From IMG/VR virus record IMGVR_UViG_3300037337_000202, positions 1 to 52,642 of that record: a stretch of 52,642 nt of DNA; one strand, given 5' to 3'. Below are positions 2,187-30,195 of the stretch, piece by piece (within the stretch, counting starts at the first letter, position 1; every line of letters begins with the position of its first letter). The notes beneath the pieces are model-generated. The model was given only the letters and a program-made list of their open reading frames with translations. It was not told where the DNA came from and ran no database searches. This DNA is from a virus. Both the position numbers and the translations under genes were made by a program.

Positions 2187-2266
2187 GCGAATAGGGACTG
2201 CATGGTGTGGTCGCTTGCCTGTCACGCAAGATATTCAGAGGGGATCGTTACCCCTTATTCGCGCCA
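2187..2266 (+). tRNA. tRNA-Asp(GTC), swapped 54/58
   Basis: Acceptor GCGAATA/TATTCGC, G and CCA. Anticodon GTC at 2221-2223. T loop ATCGTTA has A54 and T58 but keeps T55 and C56. The D loop keeps GG. Confidence 0.9.
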
Positions 2267-2999: not shown

Positions 3000-3580
3000 T
3001 GATGCTTGATAACACTATTAAATCGCAACTAAAAACGTATCTAAAATTGCTTCGCCAACCAATTAAGCTGGTTGCATCCTCAAATGCGACCGTAGAAATG
3101 CTTGAGTTTCTAGACGATATTGCCAGCTTGTCTAATAAGATTACAGTTGAGAATTATTCCCAGGATAAAAGCCTGGCGTCATTTACGATCCAATCAGAGG
3201 CTGTAACATCGGGTGTTCGCTTTGCGGCACTTCCAGTAGGCCAACTTTTAACACCAATGATTTTGGCCATGCTTTGGACTGGTGGCCACCCGCCGGTATA
3301 TTCTGAAAAACTTATTCAGAATATTAAAGACATTAACCTAGACCACGACTTCGATATCTATGTCAGTCAATCCTGCCCAAATGGCCCAAGTGTAATCGAA
3401 GCGCTAGCCTTAATGTGTGTTTTAAATCCCAAGATTACAGTAACTGTAATCGATGGTGCATTATTCACAGAAGATATCGAATTCTTAGGTATCGAAGTTG
3501 TGCCTACAATCCATCATAACAACGACTTTTTTACCCAGGGGCGTATGACTCTAGAAGAAATTTTAGCCAAATTGAACTGA
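2999..3580 (+). CDS. Stand-alone AhpF N-terminal domain protein
   Basis: 193 residues that align along their length with the N-terminal, double-thioredoxin-fold domain of alkyl hydroperoxide reductase subunit F: the opening MLDNTIKSQLKTYL, TGGHPP near 95, the redox-site region near 126, and the closing QGRMTLEEILAKL. In AhpF this domain passes electrons from the flavin domain to AhpC through a CxxC disulfide. Here the flavin part is absent and the motif is CPNG (Cys126, Gly129), so only one redox cysteine remains. A monothiol exchange or glutathionylation role is possible but is inference. It is coupled to the small gene upstream. Confidence 0.85.
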   Translation: MMLDNTIKSQLKTYLKLLRQPIKLVASSNATVEMLEFLDDIASLSNKITVENYSQDKSLASFTIQSEAVTSGVRFAALPVGQLLTPMILAMLWTGGHPPVYSEKLIQNIKDINLDHDFDIYVSQSCPNGPSVIEALALMCVLNPKITVTVIDGALFTEDIEFLGIEVVPTIHHNNDFFTQGRMTLEEILAKLN

Positions 3581-3981: not shown

Positions 3982-4016
3982 ATATACATACCAAGAGGAT
4001 TAGAACAGTACCCCAG

Positions 4017-4095
4017 GATTCATTAGATGATACACAGAGACATAGCTCCAGTAAAACGGAGAAGCATGGTGGTTATCGTGTATCATCTAATAAAT
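4017..4095 (+). ncRNA. Promoter-driven long-hairpin RNA H4
   Basis: Arms 4022-4035 and 4078-4091 are perfect 14-bp complements and extend about four more pairs beyond a mismatch. The loop (4036-4077) contains CTCC/GGAG and is nearly repeated at 4500-4546. It lies 40 nt downstream of its own promoter with no ORF. I know no matching RNA family. Confidence 0.65.
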
Positions 4096-4108
4096 CTTGA
4101 AAGCTAAG

Positions 4109-4138
4109 TTTTACTTTTATTCTGGTCTGTGTTATAAT
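4109..4138 (+). promoter_or_regulatory. Promoter P4109 (leaderless type)
   Basis: TTTTAC at 4109, TATAAT at 4133-4138. The ATG of the next gene begins 5 nt after the -10, so the transcript should start at or next to the AUG. Confidence 0.88.
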
Positions 4139-4143
4139 AACTT

Positions 4144-4353
4144 ATGAATACAAAAAACCTCACCCAAGAACAGCGTAAAATTATTTCAACCATGGAACAC
4201 GCAATGTTCAAAATGTCTTCGGCTATCGAATCTCTTGATGAACTCTCCAAAATGGGTGCTCTGAGCTCCCATATGTTCTCGACCAAGAAAATGCTCGAAG
4301 ATGCCGTCGAACAGCTTGAGTTCGACCAGCGTGAAATTTGGAATCAAGTCTGA
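4144..4353 (+). CDS. Small hypothetical protein, leaderless mRNA
   Basis: 69 residues, mostly helical in composition, with an acidic C-terminal half. No family is recognised. The start is fixed by its position 5 nt after the TATAAT of P4109, which leaves no room for a Shine-Dalgarno sequence. Promoter P4354 begins at its stop codon. Confidence 0.72.
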   Translation: MNTKNLTQEQRKIISTMEHAMFKMSSAIESLDELSKMGALSSHMFSTKKMLEDAVEQLEFDQREIWNQV

Positions 4354-4383
4354 TTTTACTTTTATTGTTGGATATGTTATAAT
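4354..4383 (+). promoter_or_regulatory. Promoter P4354 for hairpin RNAs
   Basis: TTTTAC at 4354, TATAAT at 4378-4383, followed by the ACACATACCAA leader. There is no ORF downstream until well past the hairpin RNAs, so it probably transcribes H5, H6 and the following tRNAs. Confidence 0.85.
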
Positions 4384-4418
4384 AAACACATACCAAGGGG
4401 ATTGAAACAGAATTCGTT

Positions 4419-4560
4419 ATTTTTAAGAAGATTCGATCAGCAACCGTTTCGCACTGCTTTCGGTCAATGTTTTAGTGAATTTTCTTAAAAATGGTATATA
4501 GAGACATAGCTCCCGTAAGACGGAGAAGCATGGTGGTTATCATGTATCATCTTATGAATC
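4419..4560 (+). ncRNA. Long-hairpin RNA H5 plus copy of H4 core
   Basis: Arms 4419-4434 and 4477-4492 pair over 16 bp with one G-U. Directly after, 4500-4551 repeats the loop and 3' side of H4 (AGAGACATAGCTCC, then ACGGAGAAGCATGGTGG) but lacks the long 5' arm. No ORF is present. Confidence 0.6.
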
Positions 4561-21884: not shown

Positions 21885-23417
21885 ATGAGTGAAGATTTCA
21901 AGGTACTAGATGATCGTCAGCACGTTTTGCTCAGAAGTGGCGTATATATTGGATCCACTAGTTCAGAAGCAGTAACTGGTATCATCAACTTTAAAACTTC
22001 TACCAAAACTATTGTACCTGGTCTGGTGAAAATTATTGAGGAAATTTTTCAGAACTCTATCGATGAGTTCATTCGCACCGACGGCAAATTTGCAGATCAT
22101 ATTTCTATCTCTTTTAATAATTCTATTAAAGGTACTGAAATTACCGTGACTGATAATGGTCGCGGTATTCCAGTTAAAAAGATTGGCGACACATATCAGC
22201 CTGTTCTTGCCTGGACTCAACTGAAAGCCGGCTCAAACTTTGATGATTCAAAGCGAATTGGTGTTGGTATGAATGGCATGGGTTCTGCCCTAACTGCTAT
22301 CTTTTCATCTTCTTTTGTCGGCGAAACCTGTGATGGTACTGACAAAATTCGGGTGACCTGTACAGATAACATGTCCCATGTGTCATTCAAACTATCCAAG
22401 TCTTTCAAGCAAGGCACGACTGTAAAGTTTATCCCAGATCTTTCCCGTTTTGGCTTGTCTGAACTAGATCAAGATCATATCGACATCATTCGGGATCGGT
22501 TTAGTAACCTAGCAATTGTATTTCCTGGCATTAAGTTTGTCTTTAATGGCGAGACTATTAAGTTTAAAAACCTGAAGGCAATCGGTAAACTGTTCTCAGA
22601 GCATTCAGTTACAGCAGAGACAGACAACATTGGCTTAGTATTTGCTCCATCCGGCTCGGCTGAGGAATTTATCTCACACAGTTATGTCAACGGTATTTTT
22701 GTTCGTAACGGTGGTTCGCATATTGATTTTGCAATGAGCAAGGTTATTGAGACCTTACGTGCGCATATTAAAAAGAAGTTAAAAATCGATGTGATGCCTA
22801 ATGCGATTCGACAGCACATTTTGTTCGCATCCTGGATTTCAAAGTTTCCTAATCTAAAGTTTGATAGTCAAGCAAAAGAACGTGTAACTAACTCAGCTTC
22901 TGATGTAGCCAATCATTTTCATGGGATTGACTTCGATAAAATCTCTAAACAGATTCTGAATACGCCTGAGATTCTAGATCCGATGGTGGCAGCAATTCTA
23001 TACAAACAAGAATTGGCTGATCGTGCTGCGCTTAACAAAAAGCAGAAAGCTAACACTAAACTTCGTGTGATTAATCACATCGCGGCAACTCATCCTGACC
23101 CTTCAAAACGAACCTTATTTATTGTTGAGGGGTTGTCTGCTCTTGGTAGTTTAATTTCTGTTCGTGACTCTAAGACCATTGGCGGTCTTCCATTACGCGG
23201 TAAGGTCCTAAATGTTCGTGGAATGAAACCTGTGGATATTCTGAAAAATAAGGAAATTTCAGAGCTGTTAAGTGTGTTGGGTCTAGAATTTGGTAAACCT
23301 GCTATTGCCGTTGATGAACTGTTTGAGATCACATTAGATGGAACTAAGTATGTTGTTAGTACAGATGATGAAATTAATCACAATGGAAAACTAATAAAGG
23401 TTTCCTCATTGTTATAA
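21885..23417 (+). CDS. 39: DNA topoisomerase II large subunit, ATPase part (T4 gp39-like)
   Basis: 510 residues, close to T4 gp39 (516). The N-terminal GHKL ATPase shows EIFQNSIDEF near 50, VTDNGRGIPV near 86 and GVGMNGMGSALTAIFSS near 127. The transducer domain follows. From about residue 405 the TOPRIM domain starts (FIVEGLSA, catalytic Glu), then breaks off after LGLEFGK and a tail ending KLIKVSSLL. The rest of TOPRIM is encoded after the endonuclease, as in T4 genes 39 and 60. The overlapping +1 frame at the end reads IMSDLDEDG, a TOPRIM-like DxDxDG relic (23414-23443). Confidence 0.93.
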   Translation: MSEDFKVLDDRQHVLLRSGVYIGSTSSEAVTGIINFKTSTKTIVPGLVKIIEEIFQNSIDEFIRTDGKFADHISISFNNSIKGTEITVTDNGRGIPVKKIGDTYQPVLAWTQLKAGSNFDDSKRIGVGMNGMGSALTAIFSSSFVGETCDGTDKIRVTCTDNMSHVSFKLSKSFKQGTTVKFIPDLSRFGLSELDQDHIDIIRDRFSNLAIVFPGIKFVFNGETIKFKNLKAIGKLFSEHSVTAETDNIGLVFAPSGSAEEFISHSYVNGIFVRNGGSHIDFAMSKVIETLRAHIKKKLKIDVMPNAIRQHILFASWISKFPNLKFDSQAKERVTNSASDVANHFHGIDFDKISKQILNTPEILDPMVAAILYKQELADRAALNKKQKANTKLRVINHIAATHPDPSKRTLFIVEGLSALGSLISVRDSKTIGGLPLRGKVLNVRGMKPVDILKNKEISELLSVLGLEFGKPAIAVDELFEITLDGTKYVVSTDDEINHNGKLIKVSSLL

Positions 23418-23489
23418 TGTCTGATCTAGACGAGGATGGTTGAAATTGGGAACTTATAAATAATATACCTAAACCAACCTGGATAAAAG

Positions 23490-24746
23490 ATGTTAAGTAC
23501 AATATTTGACAATATTATATTTGAAGCAAAAGGAAAAGTTAAACTAAAATCAAAAATTAAGACACATATATTGGAAAAATATGAGTCTTATGAAAATTAT
23601 TTTGATGGTAATAAGTGCTATTATTCTAATCGATATAGTAAAATCACCATGGATCTGTCTGATGATCTTTTAGTCAAGTTCGACTATTATAGAAATATTC
23701 CCTACCGATGTGGTGATAAATCGTGTCATTGTAGCACACTGAATTCAGTATCTAAAGAATATCTAAAGAATTGCCGGGGTATGACTGAAACTGAAGCAAC
23801 AGAGATGTTAAATGCCAAAGGTCGTAAATCTTATGAAACTGCCTTGCTCGATACAAATAGCAAAAATCCACACGCAATGTCTGCTCGTGGTATTAATATA
23901 CTTTCAAAGGATTATCTTGGACTCACAAGGACGCCACAAGAGGTTGACAAATATCTTACTGAAAAAGCAATCAGAGGTAGAAAAACACTGAAAGCCACCG
24001 GATGGTTTGATGACCCGACCAACAACCCATTTTCTAAAGGCTTTTGGATGAAAAAAGGTATGACTGACGATGAAGCTCTTTTAAAAATAAATTCAAGGAA
24101 CTTTTGGTGTACTGAATTTTATGACTTGAATCCAAATTCCACATTAACTAATCCTGGAAATATACAGTATTGGGTTTCATTATATGGTGAAGAGCTCGGT
24201 AGAAAAATGTATGCTGATTTAAAGTCAAGAATTAAGCACAGTAATACATTAGAAGGTAGACAAGAAAAATATGGAATGGAGATCGGATTAGAAAAACATG
24301 CTCAGTTCTTAAAGGGAATATTCGGTAACAGCTCGGGCTCTCATTCAAATGAAGCAACAAAATTCTTCGTCTCACTATATAAGCAACTTCGGAGACTGGG
24401 ATATAGCAGGAAAGATATGGTATTCGGTATAAAAGGCTCTAAGGAGATGTCTTTGTTTGACCCGAACATCCACAAGCGCTACAGTTACGATTTTACTTTT
24501 ATCCCAAAGAGTGTTATAATTGAGTATAACGGAAATATGTGGCATCCAAGAAAATCTATGATGTCGGAAGCAGATTATGATTCGTGGTCAATGCCATGGC
24601 ATGAAGGTCTTACAGCTATAGAAAAAGAATCCAAAGATCTAGTTAAAAATAAATTTGCAGAGACCTCAGGTTATACTGTAGTTGAAATATGGAGTTCTCA
24701 ATCATTCTCCGAAAAAATGAATATTTGTTTGAAAGCCTTATCATGA
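23490..24746 (+). CDS. Vsr-like (EDxHD-type) homing endonuclease splitting the topoisomerase
   Basis: 418 residues. The middle has repeated helix motifs (CRGMTETEATEMLN, KKGMTDDEALLKINS) like DNA-binding modules of phage endonucleases. The C-terminal 120 residues hold the nuclease: YSYDFTFIPKSVIIEYNG, MWHPR and GYTVVEIWSS, matching the Vsr-like fold with Asp, Glu and His. It lies in the same place as mobA between T4 genes 39 and 60, but is a different nuclease type. Its stop overlaps the next start. A promoter sequence lies within its catalytic codons (24491-24520). Confidence 0.85.
   Translation: MLSTIFDNIIFEAKGKVKLKSKIKTHILEKYESYENYFDGNKCYYSNRYSKITMDLSDDLLVKFDYYRNIPYRCGDKSCHCSTLNSVSKEYLKNCRGMTETEATEMLNAKGRKSYETALLDTNSKNPHAMSARGINILSKDYLGLTRTPQEVDKYLTEKAIRGRKTLKATGWFDDPTNNPFSKGFWMKKGMTDDEALLKINSRNFWCTEFYDLNPNSTLTNPGNIQYWVSLYGEELGRKMYADLKSRIKHSNTLEGRQEKYGMEIGLEKHAQFLKGIFGNSSGSHSNEATKFFVSLYKQLRRLGYSRKDMVFGIKGSKEMSLFDPNIHKRYSYDFTFIPKSVIIEYNGNMWHPRKSMMSEADYDSWSMPWHEGLTAIEKESKDLVKNKFAETSGYTVVEIWSSQSFSEKMNICLKALS
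24491..24520 (+). promoter_or_regulatory. Promoter-like sequence inside endonuclease gene
   Basis: TTTTACTTTTATCCC, then GTG and TATAAT at 24515-24520, a full match to the consensus. It encodes the DFTFIPKSVII segment of the nuclease. If active it would transcribe the second topoisomerase gene at 24743. Confidence 0.65.
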
Positions 24747-25240
24747 AAATCGACATCAAAAAAATTCCTGTTACTCAAGAATCAATGTCTAACTATTTTA
24801 GTGGAGCCTCTGTAAAGCGGCGAACTGTTTTTAATTCGACATTAAACTACGGTCGTATTGCCATTATGACTGACGCGGATGTAGATTAGGTAAGCTTTGA
24901 TGGTTCTTCGATCCTATGTCTATTGTTGAATCTTTTTAGCAATTGGCCAGAATTGTTTGACAGCGGTATTGTATGTCGTACCCTGACCCCTCTGTATGTA
25001 TGTGAAAAAGGAAAGGACACACAGTTATTCTATAACAAGACTGAGTTCGAAAAATTCAACAGCAAGGGTTACGCGGTTTCTTATATTAAGGGTCTAGGTA
25101 GCCTGAGCAAGTCGGCCTACAAGGAATCTATCATGCAACCCCACTTTGTGCGCTTGAACAGCTCACACGGCGGTCTGAACAGCCTTGAGATGGCATTTGG
25201 TGACTCTGCTGAGCGTAGAAAAGCTTGGATGCTTGCATGA
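24743..25240 (+). CDS. 60: Topoisomerase II large subunit, C-terminal part (T4 gp60-like), interrupted by UAG
   Basis: ATG 24743 overlaps the endonuclease stop. The first 48 codons end NYGRIAIMTDADVD, the metal-binding half of TOPRIM, then TAG (24887-24889). The same frame continues VSF-DGSSIL...NLFSNWPELFDSG to TGA at 25238, ending GDSAERRKAWMLA, as in T4 gp60. The Asp codon GAT just before the TAG recurs at 24899-24901, where DG-S resumes the family sequence. Skipping 15 nt from GAT to GAT would restore an uninterrupted motif. T4 gene 60 has a 50-nt translational bypass at nearly the same residue. Readthrough would insert five residues; a split protein is also possible. Confidence 0.8.
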
Positions 25241-25395: not shown

Positions 25396-26706
25396 ATGAA
25401 TATCGTAGATCAATCAATTACAGATATTATCAATGCTGACTACATGGAATATTCCCTGTACACAGTACAAAACCGTGCAATTCCATCTGCAGTTGATGGA
25501 CTTAAGCCAGTTCACCGAAAACTTGTTTATGCGATGTTGAATACTCATGGTGGAAAAAAGACCAAGGTGGTTGATCTGTCTGGCATTTCCTCTCTGAATT
25601 ATCATCATGGTGAAGCAAGCGCCGCCGAGGCAGTTAATACTTTAACCGCGCCATGGAACAACAACTGTCCTGTATTTACTGGACATGGCAATTTTGGATC
25701 ACGTTTGGTTCAAGAAGCTTCGGCTGCTCGATATGTCTTTGCTTCTATCTCACCTGAGTTCAAAAAGTATTTTATTGATAATGAAGTAGCCCCAAAATCA
25801 TCTGACCCAGACAGTCCGGAGCCGGCACATTACTTGCCTTCTATTCCATGGGTACTGGTGAATGGTATCTCTGGAATCGCAGTTGGTTTCGCCACCAATA
25901 TTCTACCACGTTCAATCGACACGCTTTTGAATGAGGTAAAAACATGTCTAAAAAATCCAGAAAAGTATCTTCTGGCCAACAAGGATGTGCCTCCAACATA
26001 CCCCGAATTTCGCGGTAAAGTAATTAAAGGCGAGACCAATCAATGGATCACCACTGGTATCATTGACTATACCAGTAAAAATACTTACAAAATATCTGAA
26101 GTTCCTGTTGGATATGACCGAGAGACCTATATCGGTGTATTACATGATCTAATCGATAGCGATAAAATTCGTGATTTTGAGGATGATTGCTCAGAAGAAG
26201 GTTTCGGCTTTACTGTAAAAGTAACTCCTGCACAAAAAGATAAAATCGATACTGACCCCCTAAAATATTTCAAGCTGATCAAGCCAAAGACTGAGAATCT
26301 AACCACTCTTGGCGTGGATGGTAGGCTGAAAATCTTCGAGACCATTTCCGAACTCGTTGCCTACTTTGTTGAATATCGTCTCTCAAAGTTCGGTGATAAA
26401 TTAGAGTATGAAAAAGAAACTCTTATCGGTGACATTCAGGAAATGAAGGATCGTATTGCATTTATTCGAGCTGTTATCACTCGCAAGATCGACTTCCGGA
26501 CCATGTCAAAGGTACAGTTGCTAGAATATATCTCCGAAAATATTACCACTCACGAGTGGGGCAAGACCTTTGTCAACATTCAAATGTGGGCTTGTACTAA
26601 TGATTCAGTCGAAACACTTGCCAAAAAAATCGAAACTGCCGAATCTCACTACAAGGTTTTGCTAACAGAAACCTCAATGTCCCGCTATCTATCTGTTTTA
26701 AAATAA
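25396..26706 (+). CDS. 52: DNA topoisomerase II medium subunit (T4 gp52-like)
   Basis: 436 residues, close to T4 gp52 (442). It is the DNA cleavage and rejoining subunit. Visible features are SVDGLKPVHRKLVYAM near 35, HHGEASAAEAV near 72, GNFGSR near 95, QEASAARY with the catalytic Tyr near 111, and PDYLPSIPWVLVNG-type sequence (AHYLPSIPWVLVNGISGIAVGFATNI) near 140. A coiled-coil segment lies near 340-380. It works with the products at 21885 and 24743. Catalytic motifs appear intact, which argues the whole enzyme is under selection. Confidence 0.94.
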   Translation: MNIVDQSITDIINADYMEYSLYTVQNRAIPSAVDGLKPVHRKLVYAMLNTHGGKKTKVVDLSGISSLNYHHGEASAAEAVNTLTAPWNNNCPVFTGHGNFGSRLVQEASAARYVFASISPEFKKYFIDNEVAPKSSDPDSPEPAHYLPSIPWVLVNGISGIAVGFATNILPRSIDTLLNEVKTCLKNPEKYLLANKDVPPTYPEFRGKVIKGETNQWITTGIIDYTSKNTYKISEVPVGYDRETYIGVLHDLIDSDKIRDFEDDCSEEGFGFTVKVTPAQKDKIDTDPLKYFKLIKPKTENLTTLGVDGRLKIFETISELVAYFVEYRLSKFGDKLEYEKETLIGDIQEMKDRIAFIRAVITRKIDFRTMSKVQLLEYISENITTHEWGKTFVNIQMWACTNDSVETLAKKIETAESHYKVLLTETSMSRYLSVLK

Positions 26707-27815: not shown

Positions 27816-28193
27816 ATGATGAATAAAATTACCGAATACACAGTACAAGTCGATGAAGAAAAAACTCAATGGTTCTTGAATGGAGTACTCCATCGGCACG
27901 ATGGCCCAGCAGTTGAGTATAACAATGGCCACAAGATTTGGTACTTGAATGGGAAATACCATCGTGCCGATGGACCAGCCCATGAGTATTCTAATGGCCA
28001 CAAGATTTGGTACTTGAATGGGAAAGCCCATCGTGCCGATGGACCAGCTATTGAGTATTCCGATGGCCATAAGTCATGGTACTTAGAAGGTGTAAAAGTA
28101 ACCGAACAGGCTGTGATGAAACCGGTCAAAGAAATGACGATTGTCGAAATCGAAGCCTTGCTTGGACACCCCATCCAGATCATTGCTGGCTAA
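27816..28193 (+). CDS. HR-DGPA repeat protein 1
   Basis: 125 residues. Three full 23-residue repeats of the form W(Y/F)LNGxxHRxDGPAxEYxNGHK plus a partial one, between a conserved N-terminus (ITEYTVQVDEEKTQW) and a shared C-terminal domain (MKPVKEMTIVEIEALLG). The repeats resemble MORN-like short beta repeats found in phage and bacterial proteins. Their ligand is unknown. One of six paralogues in this window, each with its own promoter; they differ in repeat number. Confidence 0.8.
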   Translation: MMNKITEYTVQVDEEKTQWFLNGVLHRHDGPAVEYNNGHKIWYLNGKYHRADGPAHEYSNGHKIWYLNGKAHRADGPAIEYSDGHKSWYLEGVKVTEQAVMKPVKEMTIVEIEALLGHPIQIIAG

Positions 28194-28194
28194 G

Positions 28195-28224
28195 ATTAAC
28201 TTTTATTCTGTGGTGTGGTATAAT
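28195..28224 (+). promoter_or_regulatory. Promoter P28195
   Basis: -35 region ATTAACTTTTATT (one base from consensus), TATAAT at 28219-28224, then the AACAAGGAAACATG leader. Confidence 0.82.
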
Positions 28225-28245
28225 AACTTATTAACAAGGAAACAT

Positions 28246-28541
28246 GATGCTCACTATTACAGAAGCCCGCGCAAAAACTAACTCGAGTTCTGCGGCACTG
28301 GCTGTTCTCATAGAAAGGTGCATTTGAACTAGACGGGAATGAAATTTTTATTTCTCGCCTGTTCAAGGCAGGTTACATGATCAAAAAAGATGACACTGAT
28401 ACCGAAATTGTAGATCGGTGGTTTCAGAATGTGTGCAGGCATGTGGACATGGGAACATGGGAACAAGAAGAAGCAATAAAGAAGAGTGGTATATGGGTTA
28501 GAACCACAGACATTGGCAACGGGCGTAGTGAAGTATCATGA
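28246..28541 (+). pseudogene. Small gene with a one-base frameshift
   Basis: ATG after AAGGAAACATG starts LTITEARAKTNSSSAALAV... and stops at TGA near 28326. Skipping one A in the GAAAGG at about 28314-28319 joins it to an open frame (GAFELDGNEIFISRLFKAG...) ending at 28541. The combined product would be about 98 residues. It is either decayed, a read error or a +1 shift site. Confidence 0.5.
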
Positions 28542-29011
28542 TTTTTAATCATATCAAGCAGCTCAAGGCAGATTGTCAAAAGATTGGAATTGTTTTTTCG
28601 TCATTTGATATGTTTCACGCCGGACACATTGCTATGTTGAGTGAAGCCAAGAATCATTGCGATTATCTTATTGCTGGACTACAAACTGATCCCACAATAG
28701 ATAGGCCCGACACCAAAAACAAGCCAGTACAAACTGTGGTAGAGCGTCAGATACAATTAGCAGCATGTCGGTACGTGGACGAAGTTGTGGTATACCAAAC
28801 TGAACAAGATCTTGCAGACCTATTGCTTATTTTACCAATTGATGTACGCATCCTGGGTGTTGAGTACGAAGGTAAAGACTTCAGCGGCAAACTAGAATGC
28901 GACATGCGAGGAATCAGACTTGTGTTTAATTCTCGTAATCATAGTTTCTCCAGCAGCAGCCTGCGCAAACGTGTAGTAAGTGCCGAAACTGTAAAGACTC
29001 TTAAAGAATGA
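28538..29011 (+). CDS. Cytidylyltransferase-like nucleotidyltransferase
   Basis: 157 residues with the HxGH fold: GIVFSSFDMFHAGHIAML at about 16-33, GLQTDP near 47 and a terminal SSSLRKRV in place of the usual ISTTxxR motif. Members such as TagD and RfaE-C transfer CMP or AMP to phosphorylated alcohols or sugars. Substrate here is unknown. It overlaps the next gene (ATGA), as often seen with the GDSH-type partner in other phages, from memory. Confidence 0.82.
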   Translation: MIFNHIKQLKADCQKIGIVFSSFDMFHAGHIAMLSEAKNHCDYLIAGLQTDPTIDRPDTKNKPVQTVVERQIQLAACRYVDEVVVYQTEQDLADLLLILPIDVRILGVEYEGKDFSGKLECDMRGIRLVFNSRNHSFSSSSLRKRVVSAETVKTLKE

Positions 29012-29270
29012 TCTTGTATGTAAATGGCGATAGTCATGCTGCTGGTGCCGAAGCAGTTGTTCCTTACGGCTGGGCCCAGCGGGTAAAGATTGCGCTGGGG
29101 CATGGGCAAACAGTCACACCCGGACAACTTGAAAGCCAGCTTTGGCCGCGAACTTGCTAATCACCTGTATGCTATACTAGAATGTGATGCACAGTCAGGT
29201 GGTGGATTCAAAAGCATGGGCAAAAAATCCAAGGAAGAAGTCTGGCAGCACTACGTGATCAGGTGGTAAG
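29008..29270 (+). pseudogene. GDSH-type phage protein, frameshifted
   Basis: ATG 29008 starts ILYVNGDSHAAGAEAVVPYGW, a conserved opening of an SGNH-hydrolase-like phage family. After about 40 codons it leaves frame, and the expected HPDNLKASFGRELANHL sequence continues in another frame from about 29112, ending at 29270. The C-terminal part is also short. Probably inactive, unless the shift is a read error. Confidence 0.65.
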
Positions 29271-29300
29271 TTTTACTTTTATTCTGAGACGTGTTATAAT
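29271..29300 (+). promoter_or_regulatory. Promoter P29271
   Basis: TTTTAC at 29271, GTG and TATAAT at 29295-29300, then ACCAACAAGGAAATATG. Confidence 0.88.
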
Positions 29301-29319
29301 AACTTACCAACAAGGAAAT

Positions 29320-29697
29320 ATGATGAATAAAATTACCGAATACATAGTACAAGCCGATAAAGAAAAAACCCAGTGGTTCCTGAATGGTAAACTCCATCGT
29401 GCTGGCGGCCCAGCCGTTGAGTATTATAATGGCCACAAGGAGTGGTACCGAAATGGTAAACTCCACCGCGTCAACGGACCAGCTATTGAGTATTCCGATG
29501 GACAAAGGGAGTGGTTCTTGAATGGAAACCCACACCGTGCCGACGGCCCAGCCGTTAAGTTGTCCAATGGTCACAAGGAATGGTTCTTGAATGGTGAGAA
29601 AGTAACCGAACAGGCTGTGATGAAACCGGTCAAGAAAATAACGGTTGTCGAAATCGAAGCCTTGCTTGGTTATTCCATCAAGATCATTGCTGGTTAA
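29320..29697 (+). CDS. HR-DGPA repeat protein 2
   Basis: 125 residues from ATG 29320. Three full repeats plus a partial one, with more diverged units (HRAGGPAVEYYNG, HRVNGPAIEYSDG). The C-terminal VEIEALLGYSIKIIAG domain is shared with copies 1, 3 and 4. Confidence 0.8.
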   Translation: MMNKITEYIVQADKEKTQWFLNGKLHRAGGPAVEYYNGHKEWYRNGKLHRVNGPAIEYSDGQREWFLNGNPHRADGPAVKLSNGHKEWFLNGEKVTEQAVMKPVKKITVVEIEALLGYSIKIIAG

Positions 29698-29699
29698 GG

Positions 29700-29729
29700 T
29701 TTTACTTTTATTCTGTGGTGTGGTATAAT
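29700..29729 (+). promoter_or_regulatory. Promoter P29700
   Basis: TTTTAC at 29700, TATAAT at 29724-29729, overlapping the stop of the previous repeat gene's trailer. Confidence 0.88.
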
Positions 29730-29748
29730 AACTTATCAACACGGAAAC

Positions 29749-30195
29749 ATGATGAATAAAATTATCGAATACACAGTACAAGTCGATGCACACAAAACCC
29801 AGTGGTTCCTAAATGGTAGACTCCACCGTACTGATGGGCCAGCCGTTGAGTATAATAATGGCACTAAGTCGTGGTACTTGAATGGTGAACTCCACCGGTC
29901 CAATGGACCAGCCGCTGAGTATAACAATGGCGACAAGATTTGGTTCTTGAATGGTAAACTCCATCGTACTGATGGACCAGCCGTTAAGTGGTCCGATGGC
30001 ACCAAGTCATGGTACTTGAATGGTAAACTCCATCGTACTGATGGCCCAGCTATTGAGTATTCAAACGGCGGCGGGTCGTGGTACTTAAATGATGTGAGAG
30101 TAACTGAAGAGGCTGTGATGAAACCGGTCAAGAAAATAACGGTTGTCGAAATCGAAGCCTTGCTTGGTTATTCCATCAAGATCATTGCTGGTTAA
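29749..30195 (+). CDS. HR-DGPA repeat protein 3
   Basis: 148 residues. Four full repeats plus a partial one, same N-terminal and C-terminal caps as copy 2. The two genes lie head to tail and are separated only by a promoter, as expected from tandem duplication followed by repeat gain. Confidence 0.8.
   Translation: MMNKIIEYTVQVDAHKTQWFLNGRLHRTDGPAVEYNNGTKSWYLNGELHRSNGPAAEYNNGDKIWFLNGKLHRTDGPAVKWSDGTKSWYLNGKLHRTDGPAIEYSNGGGSWYLNDVRVTEEAVMKPVKKITVVEIEALLGYSIKIIAG

Follow-up and report, generated by a model that had tools for sequence, protein, structure and literature searches.

An additional 15 nt, beginning with a stop codon, interrupt a gp60-like topoisomerase gene of a T4-like phage, and to judge from the sequence this feature probably represents a new, very short, in-frame variant of the gene 60-type translational bypass. 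The insert itself is confirmed as a real feature of the gene, whereas bypass is the favoured but unproven explanation of how it is tolerated; we consider it probable that the insert is crossed by an Asp-to-Asp ribosome hop of 15 nt, which would give a 160-aa product. The stretch of DNA analysed (the window) is a viral contig of 52,642 nt, IMG/VR record IMGVR_UViG_3300037337_000202, with the gene content of a T4-like phage, and this phage is known from the single metagenomic contig. The relevant features are collected in Table 1.

Table 1. Features of the window that bear on the interrupted gp60-like gene.
Feature	Positions	Strand	Basis or remark
Phage tRNA-Asp (GUC)	2187..2266	+	ARAGORN
gp39-like N-terminal part, topoisomerase II large subunit, 510 aa	21885..23417	+	Pfam DNA_gyraseB 3.9e-11, HATPase_c 9.4e-9
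Extra C-terminal tail of gp39, IAVDELFEITLDGTKYVVSTDDEINHNGKLIKVSSLL	23304..23414	+	common to split gp39 of T4 and others
Putative homing endonuclease splitting the topoisomerase, 418 aa	23490..24746	+	phrog_22677 1.9e-12
gp60-like first segment, 48 codons, ending DADVD	24743..24886	+	sequence; aligns with gp60 heads of split relatives
Proposed take-off codon GAT (Asp48)	24884..24886	+	sequence; Aeromonas (GAC) and one Acinetobacter group (GAT) likewise take off from Asp
Proposed skipped 12 nt, TAG GTA AGC TTT	24887..24898	+	missing from 68 distinct uninterrupted relatives; homologous site of T4 gap
AGGT, Shine-Dalgarno-like, 7 nt before landing codon	24888..24891	+	duplex -3.7 kcal/mol with anti-SD
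Proposed landing codon GAT, same as take-off	24899..24901	+	family sequence resumes right after
gp60-like second segment, 112 codons + TGA	24902..25240	+	53-60% identity to nearest relatives
gp52-like small topoisomerase subunit, intact	25396..26706	+	Pfam DNA_topoisoIV 1.1e-69

The gp60-like gene, whose ATG (24743-24745) overlaps the stop codon of the endonuclease gene, reads ...IMTDADVD, ending ...NYGRIAIMTDADVD, and then meets TAG (24887-24889), so that GAT TAG at 24884-24889 places an in-frame stop at the very start of an insert in the DADxD(G) site. After the second GAT the codons GGT TCT ... encode GSSILCLLLNLFSNWPELF... in the same frame, which remains open to the TGA at 25238-25240. 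Both observations, the stop directly after DADVD and the in-frame resumption of the family sequence at a second GAT 15 nt downstream, had been made in a preliminary description of this DNA and are confirmed. The comparison with relatives lacking the insert, which that description had suggested, shows G directly after DxDxD in all 68 distinct uninterrupted relatives, and the 15 nt of the window gene are therefore extra; without them, DADVD would adjoin GSSILCLLLNLFSNWPELF, as in these relatives.

The same comparison bears on the alternative that a near-cognate or suppressor tRNA simply decodes the UAG (readthrough), which would yield a 165-aa protein with five additional residues (X-V-S-F-D) after DADVD. 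The insert is in frame, contains a single stop and is followed by a recreated DG, all of which would suit readthrough, yet in 0 of the 68 uninterrupted relatives are DxDxD and G of the TOPRIM domain separated by residues, the phage uses TAG as an ordinary stop, and the homologous out-of-frame gaps described below could not be solved by this route; we regard readthrough as unlikely. Among the tRNAs read by ARAGORN there is no amber suppressor, the tRNA gene at 2579 having no anticodon that the program could call. This gene belongs to a set of 18 predicted tRNA genes between 494 and 14509, another of which has the anticodon AAT (Ile). Reassignment of TAG was rejected, as TAG terminates 11 of the 72 ORFs of at least 80 aa in the window.

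Downstream of the insert, the second segment keeps 26 of the 26 columns that are conserved at ≥90% in the relatives, and gp52 has a Pfam DNA_topoisoIV match, which bears out the earlier view that the rest of the gp60 gene and gp52 are intact. A recently broken gene, in which the stop after DADVD leaves no full gp60 and the phage is defective or dependent on host enzymes, would fit the lack of the signals that drive bypass in T4, and the phage is known from one contig only. However, ORF2 and gp52 show no decay (though a recent break would look identical), and the gap falls on a site where conserved gaps with matched codons recur; we hold this explanation to be unlikely. An assembly or sequencing error is still harder to credit: the insert is seen in a single contig, and no sibling of the window gene was found in viral_contigs or phages (including a blastn search of phages with the gene), but a 15-nt in-frame insert placed exactly at a known gap site, with a matched codon, would be an atypical error.

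The interrupted gene lies in a region arranged in the order gp39-like, endonuclease, gp60-like and gp52-like, all on the plus strand, and the large subunit is thus split upstream of the insert by an endonuclease gene (21885-25240). The gp39-like protein shares 41-62% identity with phage homologues, and its last 37 residues fall outside the topoisomerase core. This stretch is homologous to an additional tail present in the split gp39 of T4, HY01, Salmonella S16, and the Aeromonas, Shewanella, Acinetobacter and Proteus phages, with pairwise scores of 38-62 against a shuffle mean of about 21 (scores reached by 0-3 of 1000 shuffles). Likewise, the gp60 head aligns with the heads of the T4, Proteus, Salmonella, Aeromonas, Shewanella and Acinetobacter phages at 36-52% identity. 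Since tail and head are both homologous to the split-gene versions, the window carries the same kind of split cassette, and the earlier claim that an endonuclease gene splits the topoisomerase upstream, as in T4, is upheld by the gene order and the gp39-tail homology. At 23402-23443 (+), the -1 frame across the gp39 stop reads FLIVIMSDLDEDG followed by a stop, which looks like a further copy of the TOPRIM strand (IAIMTDADVDG); insertion of the cassette perhaps left this stretch behind as a scar of the recipient gene.

The endonuclease has no Pfam or NCBIfam match and no relatives in viral_contigs, with weak relatives found in Caulobacter phage Cr30, Vibrio phage VmeM-32 and Desulfovibrio phages. 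It contains the motif YDF..IIEYNG..WH..D..K..GYTVVEIW, of which the pattern YD...IIE..G..H..D..K..G is common to Cr30 and VmeM-32. We take its putative catalytic pattern (D...E-x-N-G...H...D..K), a motif shared with two weak relatives, to be possibly VSR/EDxHD-like; there is no family match, and the single-sequence model (pLDDT 40) was too poor for use. The protein also shows no HNH match and falls in phrog_22677 rather than phrog_655, which the AC4 and HY01 nucleases match; T4-type nucleases are HNH.

When the junction of each split gp60 is read as take-off codon, skipped nucleotides and landing codon (the gap length being the skipped nucleotides plus the 3 nt of the landing codon), a series of gaps at one TOPRIM site is obtained: T4 gene 60 (GGA, 47 nt skipped, GGA), Proteus Pm5461 (GGG, 48, GGA; in frame), Salmonella S16 (GGT, 45, GGC; in frame), Shewanella Thanatos-1 (GGT, 49, GGT), the Acinetobacter AC4 group (GAT, 40, GAC), the Acinetobacter Stupor group (GGT, 39, GGC; in frame, with no stop directly after take-off), Aeromonas (GAC, 14, GAC; out of frame) and the window (GAT, 12, GAT; in frame). 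In 8/8 gap types the take-off and landing codons encode the same amino acid, either Gly or Asp, and the exact GAT/GAT match flanking the window insert has a chance of about 1 in 64 for a random insert. The window is best read from these junctions as the shortest, and an in-frame, member of the series. In GenBank, the T4 and HY01 gaps are labelled as bypass and that of Aeromonas as a predicted bypass of 17 nt, while most of the remaining records show gp60 as two separate pieces. For several isolate genomes annotated in this manner, or with hypothetical proteins, the gap junctions with matched codons suggest one bypassed product. Pattern scans of viral_contigs for DADVD-TAG and DADxD-N-TAG returned, in the right register, only the known Aeromonas and Proteus cases. 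No paper describing the Aeromonas gap or the gap series was found in the literature searched, although subscription papers could hold one. A split gp60 without a gap occurs in Pseudoalteromonas phage XG4, where a stand-alone gp60 (locus 4001-4471) has an altered TOPRIM motif, VDQDPDG, and no gp39 was detected in the 4 kb upstream.

Evidence that such gaps are crossed comes from the substitutions that follow them. Between related phages, the ratio of synonymous to nonsynonymous changes after the gap is 11:1 for Aeromonas Aes516 versus AS-gz, 17:1 for Proteus, and 13:2, 13:1 and 18:4 for Acinetobacter pairs, and in the relatives whose gap is out of frame, translation evidently continues beyond it. 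The downstream frame of five Aeromonas phages has no ATG, GTG or TTG until 68 codons past the landing codon, and the variable codons within those 68 comprise 10 synonymous and 1 nonsynonymous, which indicates that this start-less stretch is translated. Readthrough and reinitiation both fail to explain this selection, as the Aeromonas gap is out of frame, whereas hopping accounts for it; by analogy, this pattern lends hopping in the window its strongest support. For the window itself, reinitiation after the UAG would produce the C-terminal part as a separate third subunit and could draw on in-frame TTG codons 8 and 9 codons past the landing codon. However, the TOPRIM domain would be cut inside its catalytic loop, the TTG TTG pair lacks a clear ribosome site, and in Aeromonas the stretch ahead of the first possible start is under selection, which together make reinitiation very improbable.

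By sequence comparison, the Aeromonas gap is the nearest analogue of the window gap. Phages Aes012, Aes516, AS-gz, 50AhydR13PP and 60AhydR15PP share with the window the endonuclease split, a gap after DADxD, Asp at both ends, UAG as the first codon and Gly after the landing codon (GAC TAGCGGGGTTAATC GAC GGT, compared with GAT TAGGTAAGCTTT GAT GGT in the window), and the Aeromonas gap, with 14 nt skipped, is likewise short and free of a T4-like hairpin (fold z -0.76). It differs in being 17 nt long and out of frame, in its unrelated gap sequence, in an HNH-type or relic nuclease and in a distant host lineage. The gap is annotated in JN377895 and JN377905 as a 'predicted 17 nt non-coding translational bypass region'. 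Of the initial proposal of a new, much shorter bypass element, the length of 15 nt and the in-frame position hold, but a 17-nt gap at the same site was already predicted in GenBank to be a bypass.

Compared with T4 gene 60 (a 50-nt bypass, with the nuclease MobA), the window shows the same split, the same TOPRIM site, matched flanking codons, UAG after take-off, a homologous gp39 tail and gp60 head, and a predicted 160-aa product. The window gap is nevertheless 15 nt and in frame rather than 50 nt and out of frame, is flanked by GAT rather than GGA, lacks both the tetraloop hairpin and KKYK, and accompanies a nuclease outside the HNH family. The 'same design' initially drawn between the two is thus correct as to site, matched codons and UAG, and incorrect as to hairpin, KKYK, nuclease and frame; similarly, the 'identical' take-off and landing codons are matched within each pair, but the T4 pair is GGA/GGA, one codon further on, and not GAT. 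Since hairpin and KKYK were looked for in the window and are absent, its gap does not count as a T4 element in the strict sense.

Other members of the series share further features with the window. In Acinetobacter AC4, KARL-1, DLP2 and phi1_092060 (43-nt gap), take-off is at the identical codon (DADVD, GAT), followed by TAG, and landing is also on Asp (GAC), but the AC4-type gap skips 40 nt, is out of frame and has a strong TAGCCTTCGGGCTA hairpin. The gaps of Proteus Pm5461 (51 nt), Salmonella S16 (48 nt) and Acinetobacter Stupor/LemonAid (42 nt) also keep the frame at this site and are bounded by codons for one amino acid; unlike that of the window, these gaps are long, use Gly codons and contain hairpins. 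Stupor (locus 3130-3210) and LemonAid have a GGT take-off codon and a TAGGCGCAAGCCTA hairpin but, in contrast to T4, lack a stop next to the take-off codon. Synthetic 'stop hops' in E. coli reporters (reviewed in PMC5009743) are also short, in-frame hops over a stop between matched codons, although these are artificial constructs with shorter gaps.

No take-off hairpin with a stop-containing tetraloop was found, short local folds being weaker than those of shuffled sequences (z = +1.6 and +2.0). The pairing of UAGG with CCUA around the gap (24887-24890 with 24913-24916), initially put forward as a structural element, does occur, but is confined to a weak long-range fold (z = -1.7; equalled in stability by 8 of 200 shuffles), and the short region is less structured than expected by chance. 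In the same way, the AGGT reported before the landing codon is present, but the strength of its match is reached by 11%-22% of random 12-mers and is not significant, and it was rejected as proof of bypass. The nascent-peptide signal KKYK about 30 residues before take-off is also absent, the aligned residues being SNYF, although a Tyr is conserved 30 residues before take-off (Tyr18 to Asp48 in the window, Tyr16 to Gly46 in T4). In T4, changing KKYK lowers bypass to <10% (PMC11194080). Other gap phages depart from this signal as well (ARYM, AKYN, AKYS, KSYK, TKYK), and it is therefore not fixed. With the T4 hairpin and KKYK absent, the mechanism in the window must differ in part from that of T4. 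Sliding across short gaps is highly processive in T4 constructs (P ~0.99 per nt, i.e. about 1% loss per nucleotide; PMC11194080), and a ribosome that has taken off should cross a short gap more easily. The phage tRNA-Asp (GUC) would read both GAT codons and may thereby take part in hopping.

The sequence of events that we propose begins with a mobile cassette (gp39 tail, endonuclease and gp60 head) that would have split the topoisomerase gene, the same type of cassette carrying a small insert in the downstream TOPRIM, here the 15 nt between DADVD and G. With GAT in the P site and UAG in the A site, the ribosome would lose codon pairing, slide 15 nt with peptidyl-tRNA-Asp and re-pair at the second GAT, and translation would continue at GGT to an uninterrupted 160-aa gp60. 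We infer that such hopping operates in the window phage from the location of the insert at the T4 gap site, the homologous split, the exactly matched codons and the relatives that are evidently translated past an out-of-frame gap; its efficiency is likewise an inference. Our confidence goes no further than probable because the phage is represented by one contig, an in-frame gap permits readthrough, which would equally give a full-length product, and the insertion event itself could have generated the 3-nt GAT/GAT match as a repeat; also against hopping are the missing take-off hairpin and SNYF in place of KKYK. As to the role of the insert, it would most likely spoil the nuclease's own cutting site, by analogy with T4, for which the original work on gap protection is reportedly that of Bonocora and colleagues. 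The 50-nt T4 gap has been suggested to shield the gene against its own nuclease (as summarised in PMC5009743), and a role in immunity is likely in the window too, albeit with a different nuclease.

T4 gene 60 has long been treated as near-unique, and yet several phage lineages have gaps at this one topoisomerase site, ranging from 15 to 52 nt. Across this series stops, frames and hairpins vary while the matched flanking codons persist, so that the series amounts to a natural mutational test of the bypass signals, and its shortest gaps (Aeromonas, 17 nt; window, 15 nt) would show the minimum that a ribosome needs for hopping. If true, the window would present a natural in-frame stop hop, a kind not known at the time of a 2016 review (PMC5009743). 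The evidence is about evenly balanced for the fuller proposition that a natural in-frame 15-nt Asp-to-Asp stop hop, devoid of the T4 hairpin and KKYK and set in a cassette with an unrelated nuclease, constitutes a minimal bypass element and evidence of recurring gap inserts at one TOPRIM site. Elsewhere in the window, 3' of gp52 (within 27816-30195), similar ORFs at 27816-28193, 29263-29697 and 29749-30195 contain repeated units of the type WYLNGxxHRxDGPAxEY.
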